Source: Actinomyces qiguomingii (lineage in GTDB: Bacteria > Actinomycetota > Actinomycetes > Actinomycetales > Actinomycetaceae). Taken from it: 64,000 nucleotides of DNA. This document shows, piece after piece, positions 5,694 through 41,236 of the stretch. The notes under the pieces are model-generated. The model saw only the letters and a list, made by a program, of their open reading frames with translations, did not search any database and was not told where the DNA came from. Both the position numbers and the translations under genes were made by a program. The stretch is from positions 1,488,001 to 1,552,000 of the forward strand of contig NZ_CP025228.1 of NCBI RefSeq assembly GCF_004102025.1, written 5' to 3'. The first letter of the stretch is position 1; the number at the start of each line of letters is the position of its first letter.

Positions 5694-7970
<2,277 letters not shown>

Positions 7971-8071
7971 TGACACCTAGCCCCTCCATTGTCTGCGGAA
8001 GAGCGTCATTGCTGCTTCCCACGCATGATGACCGCGTCGATGGCCGCATGTCGGTCGCCGACACGGTCAGA

Positions 8072-10309
<2,238 letters not shown>

Positions 10310-29700: not shown

Positions 29701-30003
29701 CTCCTCTGTAGGGAAGCCTGCGTCGGGCGGCTTGACGGACCACATGTGTGCGCTCGGTATTTTGAATCGGTGCAGAATCGACGGTGCTTCGGACTGTTTC
29801 AAGGCGAGTTCGCACGACGGCCATAACGTACGTAGATCTTCACGTAAATATGTACGGAAGATCTCACGCACATCTGAGCGAGTGTCGGAGACGTTGAACT
29901 GGGGCTGTAGACGCCGATAACAGCTATCTCGGGACGCCGCACCTCGGACCCATGCCCAACGTTTGGTGGCGTGAACTGGTGCAGCCGCTACCGCGCGGCA
30001 GCA
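29701..30003. other. low-G+C stretch without a confident gene
   Basis: About 300 bases between mntH and the ISAs1-like element, visibly richer in A/T than its surroundings. A minus-strand frame reads RRLQPQFNVSDTRSDVREIF and RTYLREDLRTLWPSCELALK before running toward mntH. It has no start, no ribosome-binding site and no recognised family, so it could be a decayed gene end or chance. Confidence 0.4.
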
Positions 30004-30013
30004 GACAGAGGGG
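30004..30013. repeat. 10-bp target-site duplication, left copy (GACAGAGGGG)
   Basis: GACAGAGGGG abuts the left end of the ISAs1-like element and recurs at 31369-31378. Confidence 0.88.
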
Positions 30014-31368
30014 CAGGGGTTCGGCAAAGTCGTTGGCTGGGTTGTGGGTTGTTAGGGGTTTTCGGTGTGTTGGTGGGGGTGCGGCGCGACCCGTCGGAGA
30101 CGATGGAGGTGTTCGAAAAAGCCATTGCCTTGGATGGTCGCGCCGCTGTGTCATCATCCACCACTCCTGCCTTGTCGCGCCAGCCCCTGACAGGGGTGTT
30201 CGCCACTGTCCCGGACCCGCGTGATCGGCGCGGGGTGCGTCACCGCCTGGACACTGTGCTGGCTTTGGCGGCGGTGGGGGTGCTGGCCGGCTGCCGCACC
30301 CTGCTGGCGATCTGGGAGCACGCCCGCGACCTGACCGGCGGCCAACTACAGCAGCTGGGACTACCACAAGACCGGGGCATCCCGTCGGAGTCGACGATCC
30401 GCCGCGCCCTGGCCGGCCTGGACGCCGACGACCTTGACGCTCGGATCGCCTCGTGGGTGCTCACCCGCACCGGCACCATCGACGGACGCAGGATTATCGC
30501 GGTGGACGGCAAGACCATGCGCGGCGCCAAACCCAAGAACAACAACAGCGGAGACGGTGATGATGGCGGCGGTGATGGTGGCGGTGGGGTGCCGCACCTG
30601 CTGGCGGCGCTGGACCAGGAGTCCGGGGCGGTGGTGGCCCAGCAGCGCGTGGCCGACAAGACCAGTGAGATACCCGCCCTGAAACAGCTGCTGGCGCCCC
30701 ATGACCTTACCGGAGCGGTCGTGACTGCTGACGCACTGCACACCCAGACCGACACAGCGCAGTGGATACGCGACCGGGGCGCCGACTACCTGCTGACGGT
30801 CAAGAACAACCAGCCCAGTCTCAGGGCGAAGCTGAAGGCGCTGCCCTGGAAGGACGTCCCCGCCGTGTCGGGGGTTGACTGCTCTCATGGGCGGCGGGTG
30901 CGCCGCACCATCAAAGCCGTGGCAACCCCGGACTGGATTGAGTTTCCCAGCGCGGCCCAAGTACTACAGGTACGCCGCACCCGCACCACCACCAAGCACC
31001 AGCCCGACGGCAGCAAGAAGTCCAAGCGCAGCACCGAGGTCGTCTACCTGGTCTGCTCCATACCGCCCGAGCAGGCCCCGCCCGAGCAAGTCGCCGCCTG
31101 GATACAGGGCCACTGGGCGATAGAAAACCGTGTTCACTGGGTACGGGATGTCACCTATGACGAGGACCGCCACCAACTCAGGACCGGCTCCGGGCCGCAG
31201 GTGATGGCCACCCTGCGGAACCTGGCCATAAGCCTGATCCGCACCATCTACGACGACCCGGCCACCACCGGCATCGCCTCAGCCAACCGGGCCATGACAC
31301 GAAGACCCACCAAAGCCATCAAACTCCTAACAACCCCATGACCACCCAACGACTTTGCCGAGCCCCTG
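30014..31368 (+). mobile_element. complete ISAs1-family insertion sequence, 1,355 bp
   Basis: The left end CAGGGGTTCGGCAAAGTCGT and the right end, read inward, CAGGGGCTCGGCAAAGTCGT are nearly identical inverted repeats, and a second matching block GGGTTGTTAGG lies just inside each. 10-bp duplications flank the element and one intact transposase gene is inside. These are the marks of a recent ISAs1-type insertion. Confidence 0.9.
30103..31341 (+). CDS. ISAs1-family transposase
   Basis: About 412 residues. The N-terminal DUF4338-like part includes VPDPRDRRGVRHRLDTVLAL and AAVGVLAGCRTL. The DDE core shows IIAVDGKTMRGAK, GAVVTADALHTQTDTAQWI and GHWAIENRVHWVRDVTYDED. ATG 30103 is chosen; the frame is open further upstream through the inverted repeat, which is not expected to code. 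A short Gly/Asp/Asn-rich insert (about residues 146-164) is unusual but common in actinobacterial copies. No frame breaks. Confidence 0.9.
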   Translation: MEVFEKAIALDGRAAVSSSTTPALSRQPLTGVFATVPDPRDRRGVRHRLDTVLALAAVGVLAGCRTLLAIWEHARDLTGGQLQQLGLPQDRGIPSESTIRRALAGLDADDLDARIASWVLTRTGTIDGRRIIAVDGKTMRGAKPKNNNSGDGDDGGGDGGGGVPHLLAALDQESGAVVAQQRVADKTSEIPALKQLLAPHDLTGAVVTADALHTQTDTAQWIRDRGADYLLTVKNNQPSLRAKLKALPWKDVPAVSGVDCSHGRRVRRTIKAVATPDWIEFPSAAQVLQVRRTRTTTKHQPDGSKKSKRSTEVVYLVCSIPPEQAPPEQVAAWIQGHWAIENRVHWVRDVTYDEDRHQLRTGSGPQVMATLRNLAISLIRTIYDDPATTGIASANRAMTRRPTKAIKLLTTP

Positions 31369-34780: not shown

Positions 34781-35192
34781 CTAAGCCGACGGTTCTGCCG
34801 GGTCGAATGTGCGGAGCCCTTGTGTGCGGGCGGCTTTGGCCAGGCGCATGCCATGAGTGAGGACTGTCACCGGGTCGCGCGGATCATCCAGGATGAGGGC
34901 TGTGGTCAGGTGAATCGCATCCAGCGACTTGAGCTCGCCCACGAATGAACGCGCGCTCGATGACGTCGTTGTTGATTCCGACGAGGCTCACATCACTGAG
35001 CGCCTACGCCGCTGCTTCCTCGGTGATCCTGGTGCGGTGAGCGAGTCTTGCGGTCTCGATTTTGAACAGAACTGAGGATATGAGTCTGTCCCTGTGGATC
35101 GCTGCCTCCAGTATGGCCTGTGCGGAGTCTGTGCCTTCTTGGTCAAGAAGAACGAGGCCGATCACGGAAGTGTCGAGGTATGTTGTCGCGAT
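34781..35192 (-). pseudogene. VapC-like PIN-domain toxin remnant
   Basis: The minus strand reads ATTYLDTSVIGLVLLDQEGT (PIN-domain first Asp), RDRLISSVLFKIETARLAHR, then a TAG (35004-35006), LVGINNDVIERAF, a one-base shift, and GELKSLDAIHLTTALIL (the SLDAIHLATA-type PIN motif) ending at 34781. The start codon is also missing: ATC stands where ATG is expected after GGAGGA. It is therefore dead in three ways. It lies downstream of and overlaps the Phd-type antitoxin gene, the normal order for such modules. Confidence 0.8.
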
Positions 35193-35554
35193 TCCTCCTG
35201 ATCCTCGTCCGGTAGCTGTTGAAGTGTCATCCCTTCGGGGGGCAGGGAACGCGGGATCGGCCCGGTTCGCTCGTGCGTGGCCTCTTGGATGAGTCCTTCG
35301 CGTAGCAGACGCTCATAGGGTGTTTCGTCGGGTTCGATAGGCACCAGCCGGACCACTGGGCGGCCACGGTCGGTGATGGTGACGGGGCGAAGGGAGGAGA
35401 CGACGTCGGCGACGATGCGTCCGGAGCGCTGGTTGAGTTCGCGGAGGCTGACGGTACGGGTGCTGCCGGCGACGGCGGGACTGGAGCCAGAGGACTGCGC
35501 CGGGGGCCATGCGGGCTGTCCACGGGTTGAGCGTTCATGACTGGATAATCTCAA
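35162..35554 (-). CDS. Phd/YefM-family antitoxin, start uncertain
   Basis: The clear part is TVSLRELNQRSGRIVADVVS, PVTITDRGRPVVRLVPI (Phd/YefM DNA-binding fold) followed by a toxin-binding tail (YERLLREGLIQEATHERTGP, IPRSLPPEG). Only a TTG (35554) opens this frame; an ATG at 35538 lies in another frame, so the N-terminus may itself have suffered a frameshift. The partner toxin downstream is decayed. Two TACATG copies (35561-35577, with five bases between) upstream could be an operator. An orphan antitoxin can persist as a repressor or as protection against related toxins. Confidence 0.65.
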   Translation of the reverse strand: MRLSSHERSTRGQPAWPPAQSSGSSPAVAGSTRTVSLRELNQRSGRIVADVVSSLRPVTITDRGRPVVRLVPIEPDETPYERLLREGLIQEATHERTGPIPRSLPPEGMTLQQLPDEDQEESRQHTSTLP

Positions 35555-35708: not shown

Positions 35709-35975
35709 ATGGACATGACGCGCTCTTCCCTGGAGACCCCGCCCCCGGCCTGGGGGCGCTACGACGGCCCCTCGGGCCGCGGACGCACTACCGCTCGGTT
35801 GACTGGAGATCGCCCACTGGTTGTCTGGACGCTGGCGACCTGCATCCTGATCGCCCTGCTGCTCGTGGTTGCTATCACCCCGTCCCTGTACACCGTCTCG
35901 GGACTCGCACTGAGCTTGTCTTCACTGGCAGCTTGGGGCGTGCTCAGCGCTAGGGTGGTGCGGGGGCTGCGGTGA
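35709..35975 (+). CDS. small two-helix membrane protein
   Basis: 88 residues: a hydrophilic N-terminus (about 35 residues, Pro/Gly/Arg-rich) and two hydrophobic helices (about 38-58 LVVWTLATCILIALLLVVAI and 62-82). No family is recognised. TACTGT at 35697-35702 stands six bases before the ATG, a leaderless-type arrangement. It lies upstream of the NTPase/TPR pair on the same strand and could be a membrane partner or effector, but nothing in the sequence proves that. Confidence 0.6.
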   Translation: MDMTRSSLETPPPAWGRYDGPSGRGRTTARLTGDRPLVVWTLATCILIALLLVVAITPSLYTVSGLALSLSSLAAWGVLSARVVRGLR

Positions 35976-36083
35976 TCCGAGCGCAGGTGGCGTCATGGCA
36001 TGCTTTGGATGCCGCTCTGGCGGGGCCAAGGATGGCTCTGGCGGCCTGTTCTCCGGTCCGGTCGCACCGTTTATGATCTGCGC

Positions 36084-37418
36084 ATGGCTCTCAGCGACCG
36101 CGAGTACCGCAAGGCCTTCTACCAGGCCCTGAACATCCAGCAGGGACGCAGCATGTCCGAAGAGGACGAGTACGAACGCTTCTACGTGCCGATCTACGCC
36201 AGTCCTAACGGACCAGCTGGGCCTGACCTGGTTGCCGAGATCATTAACGCCATTGACTTCACCACCGGCGGCTCAGTGCAGCTGCTCTCCGGCTACCGGG
36301 GAGCGGGCAAGACCACGGAGCTGATGCGCCTGCGGCGCAAGCTAGATCCGGAGCGATACGTCCCCGTGTACTGGGATGTTGAGGACTACTTCAACACCGA
36401 ACTGCCGATTGATGAGGGCACATTCCTTGTGGGCCTGGCCGCGGGCTTCGTTGACAACTGTGAGGATGCTGGCCTGCCGCAGGACAAGCTTCGTGAACGT
36501 CTCTGGGATTTTCTGGGACGAATGAACGTAAACATGGAGGCCTCCGCCGGGCCGATCTCGGCGGGCTGGGGCCAGGACGGGGCTATTCATACGCAGGTGG
36601 GAGTAGGGCCGGTTGCGTTGGGTCTGCGCGCAACTCTGCGTGATGATGAGTCCTTCCGGGCGCAGGTGAGAAAGGCGCTGGAGTCTAATCGGGCCGTATT
36701 CCGGAAAGAGATCCACCAGTTCTTCACCGATGTGGTTGCGGACCTGCCGGGCGAGCGCACTCCGGTATTCATCGTGGACTCTATCGACCACTACCGGGGG
36801 CGGGCAGACACCTTCGATCAGGTGCGTGAGTCTGTGGAGTCGCTGTTTTCCGTCTACGCCGATGAACTTGCTCTGCCTGGCATGCACGTGGTCTACACAG
36901 TCCCCATCCATGCGAATCCACCGGGGTGGCGCGGGCAACGATGGCCGGTCCTGAATGTGAAGGTGCGCGAGAGGGACGGCTCAGACTGTGCTGAGGGTAT
37001 TGAGCTGCTCCGTGAAGTGCTATCCCGCCGCGCGCCGGAGCGGAACCTGGAGCGGTTACTGGGTGATCAGGTTGATCGCGTGATACGCGACTCCGGCGGA
37101 TTATTTCGCGACCTTTTCCGGCTGGTAGCAGGTCTGCTCCTCAAGGAGGGAGCTCTACCGGTTGACGTCGTTGAGATTGAGAGTGCGGAAAACAGGGAGC
37201 GTTCCAACCTTGACGTCGGATTGAGCGAGGAGCACTTGGAAATTCTGGTCGATGTACAACGAACTAAATACCTGCGGGTTCCCCGGGAACGCTCGGCGCT
37301 TGCCTGGGAACTGCAGGCACGAGGCGCTATGATGTGCTACCGTAACGGAACTGTCAACTGGTACGGCGTGCATCCCTTGCTTGAGCCGCTGGTGGCGGAC
37401 ATGAATGAGCAGTCCTGA
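36084..37418 (+). CDS. P-loop NTPase (STAND/AAA-like), partner of the adjacent TPR protein
   Basis: About 444 residues. Walker A is GYRGAGKTTEL (residues 70-80) and Walker B RTPVFIVDSIDHYRG (about 226-239). The C-terminal third is helical, with a winged-helix-like ending (SALAWELQARGAMMCYRNGT then VNWYGVHPLLEPLV). This layout resembles STAND-type or conflict-system ATPases; no exact family is recognised. ATG 36084 is chosen because TATGAT (36072-36077) stands six bases upstream, implying leaderless initiation. The TPR gene begins two bases after the stop, so the pair forms an operon. It lies inside the normally contiguous lysA-hom junction. Confidence 0.8.
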   Translation: MALSDREYRKAFYQALNIQQGRSMSEEDEYERFYVPIYASPNGPAGPDLVAEIINAIDFTTGGSVQLLSGYRGAGKTTELMRLRRKLDPERYVPVYWDVEDYFNTELPIDEGTFLVGLAAGFVDNCEDAGLPQDKLRERLWDFLGRMNVNMEASAGPISAGWGQDGAIHTQVGVGPVALGLRATLRDDESFRAQVRKALESNRAVFRKEIHQFFTDVVADLPGERTPVFIVDSIDHYRGRADTFDQVRESVESLFSVYADELALPGMHVVYTVPIHANPPGWRGQRWPVLNVKVRERDGSDCAEGIELLREVLSRRAPERNLERLLGDQVDRVIRDSGGLFRDLFRLVAGLLLKEGALPVDVVEIESAENRERSNLDVGLSEEHLEILVDVQRTKYLRVPRERSALAWELQARGAMMCYRNGTVNWYGVHPLLEPLVADMNEQS

Positions 37419-37420
37419 AT

Positions 37421-39751
37421 ATGTGGGATCCGGAGCCTTTGCGCATCATAGGCGTAGATGAGGCATGGTCGGAGTTGCGCCACCATCTGGACTGGACAGT
37501 GGGTCAAGGTACGGTAGTGTTCATTGCGGCCCAGTCCCGTGATCAAATTGAGGATATGTGCTCTCGTGCGCGGATGTGGGCGGCGCGAGCGCACACTCAC
37601 TGGCATGAGGCCCCACAGGGCGAAGGTGTTGCCCAGTGGCTCTCCCGCAGCCCGTCGGCGCCGGGCGTGCTCTGGATTGATGCCTGGGATGGCGCCCAGC
37701 GCATTGTTGCCTTGCACCGGTTGAACGAACTCAGGGTGAGAATGGTGCAGCACATAACGGGCTGTGTCATCATCAGCGGGCCCACCGAGCTTTTGGTCGA
37801 CGCCGTGCGGGAGGCCGTGGACCTGTGGTCCGTACGCTCGCTGACACTCAAGATTGCAAGCCGAGCAGCGGACCACTCGGAGTTCACGGACGTACCCGCA
37901 TTTGACGCTGAAGCTCGTGTGCTCGGGGGTGACGGCAATCAATCCGCGTGGCGGATCACGCTGCCGCCCGACCTGCGGAGTGACGAGGCGGCGAGAGTGT
38001 TGCGTGAAGTGGAAAGGGTCCGCCGCCTGCTCCTAAATGATCCGATTGCCGCGCGCCGCTTGCTGGAGAAGTATAACTGGGGGCAATCGATCGTGGGGGG
38101 AGTTCTGTTCGGTCTGGTACGGGCTGAAATTGCTGGGATGCTTGGTGATGCGACTGCCGTTGAGGTTATTCTTGCTGCGTGTGTAGAGAGAGCTAAGAAA
38201 ATGCCTGATGCGTTTGCCGTCCAGGTCATCGCGGCTGCGTGGCAAATCGGTGTTGCGTTCGGCGCTTTGGACTCTGCGGGGTTGGCGGCCGACTATTTGG
38301 TGGATCGTGGCCGGAAGTTGGTTGGTGCTTTGGGTGCGCCGGAGACGCGGGGTGACTTGGTGACTGCGCTTAAAAGCGTGGGGCGAGTGGCCGAGGCTCG
38401 TGGCGAGTGGGAGGTGGCGGGCCGGGCGTATGGGGAGGCATTGGAGATATCGCGGGAGTTGGCCGGTGAGTTGGGTACGGCCGAGGCACGGCGTGATTTG
38501 TCGATCTCGCTGAACCGTGTGGGTGATGTGGCGCAGGAACGTGGCGAGTGGGAGGTGGCGGGCCGGGCGTATGGGGAGGCATTGGAGATATCGCGGGAGT
38601 TGGCCGGTGAGTTGGGTACGGCCGAGGCACGGCGTGATTTGTCGATCTCGCTGAACCGTGTGGGTGATGTGGCGCAGGAACGTGGCGAGTGGGAGGTGGC
38701 GGGCCGGGCGTATGGGGAGGCATTGGAGATATCGCGGGAGTTGGCCGGTGAGTTGGGTACGGCCGAGGCACGGCGTGATTTGTCGATCTCGCTGAACCGT
38801 GTGGGTGATGTGGCGCAGGAGCGCGGCGAATTGGTGCAGGCGCAAATGGTCTACGAGGAGTCCGCGGAGATTGCGCGGGAACTGGCGGAAGACTTGGGTA
38901 CGCCGGAGGCTCGGCGCGATTTACTGGTGTCGCTTAACAATGTTGGGGATGCGGCCGAGGCGCGCGCTGAATGGGGACAGGCGCAAATGGTCTACGAGGA
39001 GTCCGCGGAGATTGCGCGGGAACTGACGGAAGACCTGGGCACGCCGCAGGCGAGGGGTGACCTGGCGGCTCTGCTTCAAAATGCGGGATGGGTGGCTGAG
39101 GCGCGTGGCGACTTGGAAGTTGCGAGTGAGGTCTACGCGGAGTCGCTGGCAATCTGTAGGGAGCTGGCCAGCGAGCTGGGCACGCCGCAGGCTCGGCGTG
39201 GTTTGTCGATCTCGCTGAATCGTGTGGGTGATGTGGCGCAGGAGCGCGGTGAGTTCAGCTCAGCGGCCTTGGCATACGGGGAGTCGCTGGCAATCTGTAG
39301 GGAGCTGGCCAGCGAGCTGGGCACGCCGCAGGCGCGGCGTGACTTGACGGTCTCGCTGGACCACGTTGGGGGAGTTGCTGAGGCGCGTGGCGACTTGGAA
39401 GTTGCGGGTGAGGTCTACGCGGAGTCGCTGGCAATACGTAGGGAGTTGGCCGATGTTGATGATAAGCCGCAGGCACGCCGTGACTTGGCGGCTGCACTGG
39501 ATAACGTGGGGTGGGTGGCGCAGGCTCGTGACGATTGGGCCGTGGCGGGCGATGCCTTCCGGGAAGCACTGACAATATGCCGTGAGCTTGTAGACACCGT
39601 AGGTACGCCCCAGGCCTACCGGGACCTGGCAGAAGTACTCGCCCATGCAGCGCATGCGGCGCAGGCCCAAGGCCATTGTGGAACCGCTGACGCCTTGAAC
39701 CAAGAACGCGAGCGCATCATCCACCTCTTGGAGGAACAAACCGAGGTCTGA
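37421..39751 (+). CDS. TPR-repeat protein with degenerate NTPase-like N-terminal domain
   Basis: 776 residues. The first about 150 look like a P-loop fold without its P-loop: TVVFIAAQSRDQ where Walker A should be, VLWIDAWDG as Walker-B-like strand (83-91), then CVIISGP and VRSLTLKI strands. A helical linker follows (to about 300), then about ten TPR-type repeats of 47 residues with the consensus G.WEVA.RAYGEALEI.REL and GTAEARRDLSISLNRVGDVA. Three successive repeats are identical at DNA level. The gene is immediately downstream of the active NTPase gene. An active/inactive NTPase pair with a long TPR sensor suggests an oligomerising sensing complex; function is inferred only. Confidence 0.75.
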   Translation: MWDPEPLRIIGVDEAWSELRHHLDWTVGQGTVVFIAAQSRDQIEDMCSRARMWAARAHTHWHEAPQGEGVAQWLSRSPSAPGVLWIDAWDGAQRIVALHRLNELRVRMVQHITGCVIISGPTELLVDAVREAVDLWSVRSLTLKIASRAADHSEFTDVPAFDAEARVLGGDGNQSAWRITLPPDLRSDEAARVLREVERVRRLLLNDPIAARRLLEKYNWGQSIVGGVLFGLVRAEIAGMLGDATAVEVILAACVERAKKMPDAFAVQVIAAAWQIGVAFGALDSAGLAADYLVDRGRKLVGALGAPETRGDLVTALKSVGRVAEARGEWEVAGRAYGEALEISRELAGELGTAEARRDLSISLNRVGDVAQERGEWEVAGRAYGEALEISRELAGELGTAEARRDLSISLNRVGDVAQERGEWEVAGRAYGEALEISRELAGELGTAEARRDLSISLNRVGDVAQERGELVQAQMVYEESAEIARELAEDLGTPEARRDLLVSLNNVGDAAEARAEWGQAQMVYEESAEIARELTEDLGTPQARGDLAALLQNAGWVAEARGDLEVASEVYAESLAICRELASELGTPQARRGLSISLNRVGDVAQERGEFSSAALAYGESLAICRELASELGTPQARRDLTVSLDHVGGVAEARGDLEVAGEVYAESLAIRRELADVDDKPQARRDLAAALDNVGWVAQARDDWAVAGDAFREALTICRELVDTVGTPQAYRDLAEVLAHAAHAAQAQGHCGTADALNQERERIIHLLEEQTEV
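38400..38822 (+). repeat. three near-identical 141-bp tandem repeats within the TPR gene
   Basis: Units begin at about 38400, 38541 and 38682 (GTGGCGAGTGGGAGGTGGCG) and appear identical over their 141 bases, diverging only at the end of the third. Each encodes one 47-residue TPR-like repeat. Such identity implies recent duplication or gene conversion and predicts copy-number variation between strains. Confidence 0.9.
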
Positions 39752-39877
39752 CTCCGCTTTCCCGCTCCCGCCGCAGTCCTCTGGGCCGAGGAAGCACGGA
39801 CTTCCTGAAGCCGCCTATGCTGTGCCGAGTCATGCTCGCCCGCCCCGGCGAGCCCGCACGCACTCGAGGTGGTTCCC

Positions 39878-41236
39878 GTGAAACAGCAGGCAGCCCAGGA
39901 AACGGCGCAGCCGGCCCCGGCGGCGGCGAGGCCGCAGCGCCCCACACTGCGAGTCGGTGTCCTCGGCTCCGGCACCGTCGGCACCCAGGTGATTCGGCTC
40001 CTGCTCGAACAGGCCGATGACTTCGCCGCCCGCTCTGGCGCGCGCCTGGAGATCACCGGCGTTGCCGTCCGCGACGTGGACGCCCCCCGAGATGACGCCG
40101 TCCCACGCGAGCTGCTCACCGACGATGCCCAGACTGTGGCCACCTCCAATGACATCGTGGTTGAACTTATCGGCGGTATTGAGCCCGCCCGCAGCCTGAT
40201 ACTGGCAGCCTTCGCCTCCGGAGCCAGTGTGATCACCGGCAACAAGGCCCTGATCGCCGCGCACGGCCCCGAGCTGTACGCGGCCGCCGCCGAGGCGAAC
40301 ACCGACTTCTACTACGAGGCCGCCGTCGCCGGCGCCATCCCCGTTGTCTACGCCCTGCGCGAGTCCATGGCCGGGGACCGCGTCACCAGCGTGCTCGGCA
40401 TCGTCAACGGCACCACCAACTACATCTTGGACGAGATGAGCACCAAGGGCCTGTCCTTCGACACCGCCCTCGCCGCTGCCCAGGAGCTCGGCTACGCCGA
40501 GGCCGACCCCACCGCCGACGTCGACGGGCTCGACGCCGCCGCCAAGGCCGCCATCATCGCCTCCCTCGCCTTCCACACGCGCGTCGGTCTCGACGACGTC
40601 GAGGTCGAGGGCATCCGCTCCATCACCTCCGACGACATTCGCGAGGCCCACGCCTCCGGCTGCGAGCTCAAACTTCTGGCCATCGCCCAGCGCTGCGAGG
40701 ACGAGCAGGCCAACGGTATCTCCGTGCGTGTGCACCCCGCCCTGGTACCCGCGGATCACCCGCTCGCCAGCGTTCGCGGCGGCTTCAACGCCGTGCTGGT
40801 CGATGCCGAGGCCGCCGGGCGGCTGATGTTCTACGGGCAAGGAGCCGGCGGCACCCCCACCGCCTCTGCCGTGCTATCCGACGTCGTCGCCGCTGCCGCT
40901 CACCGCGTCAACGGAGGGCAGGCTCCCCGTGAGTCCAGCTATGCCGAGCTGCCGATTCTGCCCCCCGAACAGGCACTGACCCGCTATCAGATCCAGCTGC
41001 GTGTAGCCGACGCGCCCGGTTCGCTAGCAGCTGTCGCCCAGGTATTCGGTGACTATGACGTCTCAATTAACTCCGTGCGGCAGGCCAGTTACGTTGACGT
41101 CGGCGACGAACTTGCGCTGGTGACCATTGTCACTCATGCTGCTCCGGTGGGCAGGCTTGAAGCCGCTGTGGACGGGCTGCGTGCCCAGGAGCGCGTAGCC
41201 GAGGTCGTCTCCACCCGCCGTGTAGAGGGACTGTGA
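39878..41236 (+). CDS. hom: homoserine dehydrogenase
   Basis: About 452 residues: NAD(P)-binding LRVGVLGSGTVGTQVIRLLL, the catalytic domain (SVLGIVNGTTNYILDEMSTK, LGYAEADPTADVDGLDAAAK) and a C-terminal ACT domain (LRVADAPGSLAAVAQVFGDY) for threonine feedback. It reduces aspartate semialdehyde to homoserine. GTG 39878 follows AGGTGG at a suitable distance; GTG 39869 is within that site. TATGCT at 39816-39821 may be its own -10, needed because accessory genes now separate it from lysA. thrB follows after seven bases; thrC is not between them. Confidence 0.95.
   Translation: MKQQAAQETAQPAPAAARPQRPTLRVGVLGSGTVGTQVIRLLLEQADDFAARSGARLEITGVAVRDVDAPRDDAVPRELLTDDAQTVATSNDIVVELIGGIEPARSLILAAFASGASVITGNKALIAAHGPELYAAAAEANTDFYYEAAVAGAIPVVYALRESMAGDRVTSVLGIVNGTTNYILDEMSTKGLSFDTALAAAQELGYAEADPTADVDGLDAAAKAAIIASLAFHTRVGLDDVEVEGIRSITSDDIREAHASGCELKLLAIAQRCEDEQANGISVRVHPALVPADHPLASVRGGFNAVLVDAEAAGRLMFYGQGAGGTPTASAVLSDVVAAAAHRVNGGQAPRESSYAELPILPPEQALTRYQIQLRVADAPGSLAAVAQVFGDYDVSINSVRQASYVDVGDELALVTIVTHAAPVGRLEAAVDGLRAQERVAEVVSTRRVEGL

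Follow-up and report, generated by a model that had tools for sequence, protein, structure and literature searches.

An ORC/Cdc6-like ATPase and a P-loop-less AAA+ partner encoded as a gene pair between lysA and hom in Actinomyces qiguomingii

What is the role of two adjacent genes that separate lysA from hom in Actinomyces qiguomingii? They lie in a stretch of 64,000 nucleotides of contig NZ_CP025228.1 (positions 1,488,001 to 1,552,000), which we call the window and to which all coordinates without a locus name refer. An earlier note, made from the letters of the window, described a P-loop nucleoside triphosphatase (NTPase) followed by a protein with an inactive P-loop-like domain and tetratricopeptide repeats (TPRs), and suggested an immune role for the two together with a small membrane protein. 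The two genes almost certainly form a conserved unit, in which an ATPase with intact motifs is paired with an AAA+ protein that has no P-loop, and this unit is probably a two-protein defence switch that has not been described before.

The ATPase and its inactive partner

The NTPase gene (36084..37418, forward strand) encodes 444 residues. The start is placed at 36084 and not at 36000 because homologues begin at residues encoded from 36084. The genome analysed is a single contig of 3.99 Mb and contains one match to the NTPase. The Walker A motif GYRGAGKT (residues 70-77, 36291..36314) and the Walker B motif VFIVDSID (residues 228-235, 36765..36788) are as first read, and G70, G73, G75 and K76 of the former and D232 of the latter are invariant in all 39 aligned homologues. 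The same is true of a sensor-2-like motif GGxxR (G338, G339 and R342, 37095..37109), and all three motifs are on the forward strand. The structure predicted with AlphaFold2 (AF2; mean predicted local distance difference test (pLDDT) score 90.6) has an AAA+ core, a helical lid and a winged-helix-like C-terminal end, which together with sensor 2 (R342) are the features of ORC/Cdc6-like AAA+ ATPases.

With regard to the suggestion that the NTPase is of STAND type, structure searches give ORC, Cdc6 and TnsC together with CED-4 and Apaf-1. TnsC and DNA-binding ORC proteins are among the best matches in the VIA search, and the Foldseek matches include CED-4, Apaf-1, Avs3 and plant nucleotide-binding leucine-rich repeat (NLR) proteins. 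The STAND class is defined by a GxP motif that replaces the sensor-2 arginine. The NTPase has the P-loop and Walker B of that class (39 of 39 homologues), but the window protein reads GGLFRDL, and while the arginine is found in 39 of 39 homologues the proline is found in only five of the 39. The STAND assignment holds for the structural likeness and fails for the motif, and the NTPase is nearer to ORC/Cdc6 than to canonical STAND proteins. Profile libraries add little: AAA_16 and AAA_22 fall under their Pfam cut-offs, NCBIfam gives only matches far under its curated cut-offs, and the PADLOC 2.0.0 profiles have no match to the NTPase and only TPR and two weak matches to its partner.

The partner gene (37421..39751, forward strand) has its ATG two bases beyond the end of the NTPase stop codon at 37418, and encodes a protein of 776 residues with an inactive AAA+ domain, a linker and a TPR array. 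The N-terminal domain (residues 1-165, 37421..37915) carries the motifs LNxxR and DLWSxRS. It is predicted to have an AAA+ fold (AF2, mean pLDDT 89.8; fold searches lead to AAA+ proteins), and the model has the five-stranded topology of the AAA+ core. No Walker A motif could be seen by eye across the aligned partners, 37 in one alignment and 49 in another, in agreement with the first description of the domain. No Pfam family matches more than one of 37 members (best E 0.0077), and a search of PDB sequences gave as best match a designed ATPase (E 7.5e-4), which was not accepted as homology. The second motif, DLWSVRS in the window (37820..37840), includes R139 (37835-37837), which we propose as a trans-acting arginine finger. 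D134 and W136 are conserved in 48 of 48 scorable rows and R139 in 45 (one of the 49 rows is gapped), and in the predicted structure R139 sits between the helix of residues 133-137 and the strand of residues 141-145.

The TPR array (38330..39700, borders approximate; Pfam TPR_12, E 9e-34) has about ten units with a period of 47 residues. It includes 3.1 tandem copies of a 141-bp (47-codon) unit at 38399..38829 that are 99% identical in DNA, which points to recent expansion of the repeats.

Linkage and distribution of the pair

A scan of contigs with the single sequence found no relatives, and an alignment-based scan gave 96, of which the best 80, including five from Actinomyces, were kept. At 76 of these 80 loci (71 of the 75 outside Actinomyces) a protein matching the profile of the partner's N-terminal domain is encoded no more than 200 bp beyond the NTPase gene. 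Forty-eight of these 76 proteins, with the window partner, went into the profile, and the remaining 28 are independent of it. As for the other four loci, L074 and L090 stop at a contig edge and at L075 and L106 no partner was found adjacent. L042 is a decayed copy of the pair. An active ATPase with the sensor repeats on its inactive partner, which had been thought an unusual layout, is thus the rule in this family, and the homologues do not consistently occur apart. Judged from the sequences, the active/inactive pairing and close linkage extend over ten phyla, these being the phyla as labelled in the tree of the 80 NTPases, in which many rows are metagenome assemblies. Distances between NTPases and between partner domains are correlated (r 0.81 for 48 pairs; permuted maximum 0.19), which is evidence of co-inheritance and not of contact.

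In 18 genomes chosen because they bear the NTPase there are 41 partner matches, of which 35 immediately follow an NTPase, and when the 17 identifiable loci that led to the choice are removed the figure is 18 of 24 (the partner of L103 is absent from the matches). An iterated profile recovered the partner behind at least three further NTPases, L168, L169 and L171, which had been false negatives. Eight plasmid records have a match, seven of them cyanobacterial, and in both copies inspected (L175 and L176) the iterated profile finds a partner following the NTPase. In the genome that holds a Symploca locus (G112, with L155-L161, L167 and L168) there are 13 NTPase matches, including fragments, and 10 partner matches, and several of its partners are about 1700-2000 residues long.

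In the case of Actinomyces, 48 congeners were searched and nine have an intact NTPase and three have fragments (G008, G029 and G041); two additional weak matches, in G007 and G015, are distant. The partner is behind eight of the nine intact NTPases, three of these partners being truncated by contig ends. The first 303 residues of the partner were never found without the NTPase or its fragments in 36 congeners. All 12 Actinomyces copies follow lysA and share its strand, at a distance of 24 to 4,351 bp, and in several of them other ORFs, for example for transporters, intervene. Beyond the pair hom is present in eight of the nine with sequence there, in some after intervening cargo. In G014 hom was not found in the stretch examined, and in three copies the contig breaks off within the partner. 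The pair has therefore long resided between lysA and hom in the genus, where it has repeatedly been lost or decayed, and is not a recent arrival. The junction behaves as an accessory site: in L020, L021, L022, L027, L028, L029 and L030 the cargo varies, and by eye includes ABC-type transporters, surface-protein-like open reading frames (ORFs) and the small membrane protein. The GC content at third codon positions (GC3) is 0.71 for the NTPase and 0.69 for the partner gene, as against 0.82-0.92 for argS, lysA, hom and thrB, and GC3 of the NTPase is below that of lysA in 9/9 congeners.

Function of the pair and the alternatives

The best indication of function comes from relatives whose partners carry further modules. 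We scanned 32 partners with Pfam. They were picked by hand, and long ones were chosen deliberately in part of the sample, so the share with modules should not be read as a frequency. In fifteen a signalling or effector module follows the inactive domain on its C-terminal side. The L060 partner has SIR2, NACHT and FGE, that of L072 SIR2, nSTAND5 and TPR, and that of L070 NACHT with FGE just below its cut-off. Those of L155 and L160 have nSTAND1 with WD40, and nSTAND1 is found in L162 and, where residues 150-1000 were scanned, in L159, L168, L171 and L175. L163 has NACHT, as has L157 (just below the cut-off in the whole protein, above it in a fragment scan), L165 has NB-ARC and TPR, L164 a kinase and FGE, and P0119 the series LRR-Roc-COR-TIR. 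Twelve of the fifteen are behind an NTPase. In addition a cyanobacterial NTPase (L167) is itself fused to nSTAND1, and a profile search for the partner domain in that fusion gave nothing convincing. These fusions point to a role in biological conflict, and in this respect the immune role first suggested has gained support, while in another respect, the neighbouring genes, it has not.

A separate fusion is seen in L187, whose genome belongs to the order that contains Ideonella (which we take to be Burkholderiales). There an NTPase homologue (7402-10065 of that locus, reverse strand) has Schlafen AlbA_2 and HATPase_c_4 fused at its N-terminus, and a partner-domain ORF lies behind it.

We suggest that the pair is a hetero-AAA+ switch with a conflict-related, NLR-like role, in which the partner both supplies the missing part of the ATPase site and bears the sensor or effector; on balance we lean to this interpretation. 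The proposal comes from the conserved partner motif, which ends in an arginine positioned like the trans finger of clamp loaders. In the bacterial clamp loader, subunits without a P-loop supply the arginine finger, and both it and the ORC complexes combine active and inactive AAA+ subunits, with the finger acting in trans from just before strand 5. They differ in being replication machinery of several subunits without fused TPRs or effectors. The NTPase, which has intact motifs and neither sensor nor effector of its own, would be joined by a partner whose AAA+ domain appears incapable of the usual ATP binding. The inactive domain would dock on the NTPase and offer the arginine of DLWSxRS to the bound ATP; that the two proteins form a direct complex we regard as likely. 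The repeats, TPR here and WD40, lectin-like FGE or LRR in relatives, may bind a ligand derived from an intruder or from stress, and binding would alter how the pair turns over ATP or assembles. An effector, fused or recruited (SIR2, TIR, NACHT/nSTAND1 or kinase in relatives), could then be released or oligomerised, and the cell killed or arrested. The Actinomyces partner is a minimal form with TPRs only and no recognisable effector domain, so it would have to draw in an effector by way of the TPRs or work through the AAA+ complex itself.

Several observations weigh against a defence switch of this kind. The arginine equivalent to R139 is missing in three of 48 partners, and its assignment as a finger is made on predicted topology only. 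The NTPase and partner profiles do not match significantly (hhalign probability 2.8, P 0.016), so the inactive domain may have an origin other than the active one. In the 18 genomes 18 of the NTPase matches compared had at first no partner match, at L166, L167, L172 and L173 the iterated profile still finds none, and in G031 the NTPase is intact and only 17-19 residues of the partner remain. No match was found in 50,697 phage records, nor any relative in viral contigs. Among the partners scanned, 15 of 32 have TPRs only and two (L058 and L186) have no recognised domain, and three of the fifteen with modules lack an observed NTPase upstream: for P0119 there is no context, and L157 and L165 have no NTPase match in front. 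In the immediate neighbourhood (95 of 103 ORFs picked, eight being dropped by hand, including a partner-like ORF upstream at L063) 17 PADLOC profiles had a match, none of them in more than one ORF, and the Pfam families, among the 25 of 120 that were listed, are mainly metabolic or housekeeping.

This last point is evidence against defence islands. The earlier note had seen an insertion at a typical place for defence genes, but neither the junction cargo nor the neighbours support such a context. Grouping of 456 neighbouring ORFs from 75 loci (62 with 3 kb upstream and 40 with 3 kb downstream) gave no recurrent third gene, only one group of seven loci, which probably reflects TPR similarity, and beyond it sets of two or three loci each that are by eye mostly housekeeping genes. 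Occurrence beside metabolic genes is thus largely the case for neighbours, and not for the domains fused to partners.

It is from these neighbours that a different role could be argued, as a housekeeping or metabolic regulator whose TPRs sense the state of the cell, for example the supply of aspartate-family amino acids, and which uses ATP, perhaps acting on DNA by means of the winged-helix end. The TnsC and ORC matches noted above are in keeping with it, as is the position of hom in Actinomyces. Furthermore hom (8633-9961 in L085) is directly before the pair at four of nine betaproteobacterial places with enough flank (L085, L094, L097/G110 and L179 of G309), in L094 and L097 in the order alaC-hom-[pair]-thrC, and these NTPases fall in different subclades of the tree. 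However, hom was found in only three of the 75 loci outside Actinomyces and is absent beside the pair in L087, both places in G321, G373 (C242) and G432. By our estimate chance alone would lead two lineages to share some neighbour among about 60, and hom adjacency was not accepted as proof of a metabolic role; in two lineages it could be chance, in three that is less likely. Within the same betaproteobacterial order at least 5 of 399 genomes have an NTPase match, a lower bound as at most four candidates were scored per genome. Since the pair is also absent or decayed in most congeners, and SIR2, TIR, NACHT and kinase modules are fused to partners in relatives, we consider a metabolic regulator unlikely.

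Somewhat less likely again is a canonical STAND/NLR defence protein split in two, with the NTPase as the switch and the TPR protein as a ligand-binding accessory. The Foldseek matches to CED-4, Apaf-1, plant NLRs and Avs3 would suit it, but the arginine and the rarity of GxP would not, nor would the AAA+ fold of the partner itself; and where partners have a STAND module of their own the NTPase adds to a switch that the receptor already has. A regulator of transposition or of mobile-element targeting, with a TnsC-like ATPase and its adaptor, seems very improbable.

Returning to the hetero-AAA+ switch, we raise tentatively a broader proposal, that a whole class of NLR-like receptors of bacteria, spread over at least ten phyla, shares as its front end a two-gene AAA+ gatekeeper, self-contained and not described before, in which an ORC-like ATPase works with a pseudo-ATPase that bears the arginine finger. 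STAND, SIR2, TIR, WD40 and TPR parts would be exchangeable cargo of the pseudo-ATPase, with activation licensed by a replication-style hetero-AAA+ site formed only when both proteins meet. If so, bacterial NLR-like immunity would have a shared ATP-dependent layer of control, the adaptor domain, which has no Pfam family, could be used to find further receptors, and ORC and clamp-loader chemistry, with its finger in trans, would be linked to NLR activation. The cyanobacterial nSTAND1-WD40 partners, with many copies per genome, resemble Apaf-1-like layouts.

Among the known systems closest to the pair is the CARD-NLR-like LypABC of Caulobacter. LypB is an Orc1-like AAA+ ATPase with TPR-like repeats, LypA has an ATPase domain without Walker residues and interacts with LypB, all three genes are required for lysis, and the genes are outside defence islands and patchy in the genus (PMC13236601). 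The coupling of an Orc1-like ATPase to an ATPase-like domain without Walker residues is shared. In LypABC, however, it is the active ATPase that bears the repeats, the protein without Walker residues also has CARD-like and trypsin-like domains, and LypC is needed in addition (PMC13236601). With its TPRs on the inactive partner and no recurrent third gene the present pair falls outside the CARD-NLR type, although CARD domains were not specifically searched for.

The iSTAND and iSTAND2 systems are ternary MoxR-vWA systems coupled to an inactive STAND and enriched in multicellular bacteria (PMC7159879, PMC8195603). They too set an inactive P-loop domain with an active AAA+ protein, and have TIR, FGS and repeat modules. 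By the descriptions given, they differ in being defined by MoxR and vWA, in place of an ORC/Cdc6-like ATPase, and in having signalling domains at the N-terminus, where the modules here are C-terminal to the inactive domain (PMC7159879, PMC8195603). By eye there was no MoxR/vWA group among 14 neighbour groups, and neither MoxR nor vWA is among the Pfam families that at least two of the 95 neighbours share, although single occurrences are possible. NACHT/nSTAND-FGE (CLec) conflict proteins are putative antigen sensors diversified by DGRs (PMC10907252), and the L060 and L070 partners have this type of module. In many of these targets the N-terminus is extended by sequence with no known domain, and in the part of the text available neither an upstream ORC-like ATPase gene nor an inactive AAA+ domain is described (PMC10907252). 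In a literature search, with most subscription journals outside its reach, we recognised no paper describing the pair or the partner domain.

Other genes around the pair

In the window hom is at 39869-41236, and the positions of lysA upstream and hom downstream of the pair were borne out by comparison with congeners. Before the pair is an ORF for a small hydrophobic protein of 88 residues (35709..35975, forward strand), the proposed third member. In a survey of 36 congeners, seven of them with the pair, it is present in G011, G013, G014, G019, G021, G027, G028 and G029. G011 and G013 have lysA, the antitoxin, the small ORF and hom but not the pair, and four of the seven with the pair lack the small ORF (G005, G016, G031 and G034); the copy in G021 is on another contig. 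We therefore place it outside the unit, and the idea of three genes travelling together was given up.

Further upstream on the reverse strand (35162-35464 and 34781-35165) are a gene for a Phd/YefM antitoxin (PhdYeFM, E 1.8e-8) and two short adjacent ORFs. The ORFs resemble a broken PIN toxin by eye but have no Pfam PIN match, and the reading of this region as toxin-antitoxin debris is only half supported. A Phd/YefM antitoxin lies in the lysA-hom junction of G011, G013 and G029 as well. Upstream of argS there is an insertion sequence (IS) transposase gene of the DDE_Tnp_1 family (29971-31341, forward strand; Pfam E 6.6e-25).
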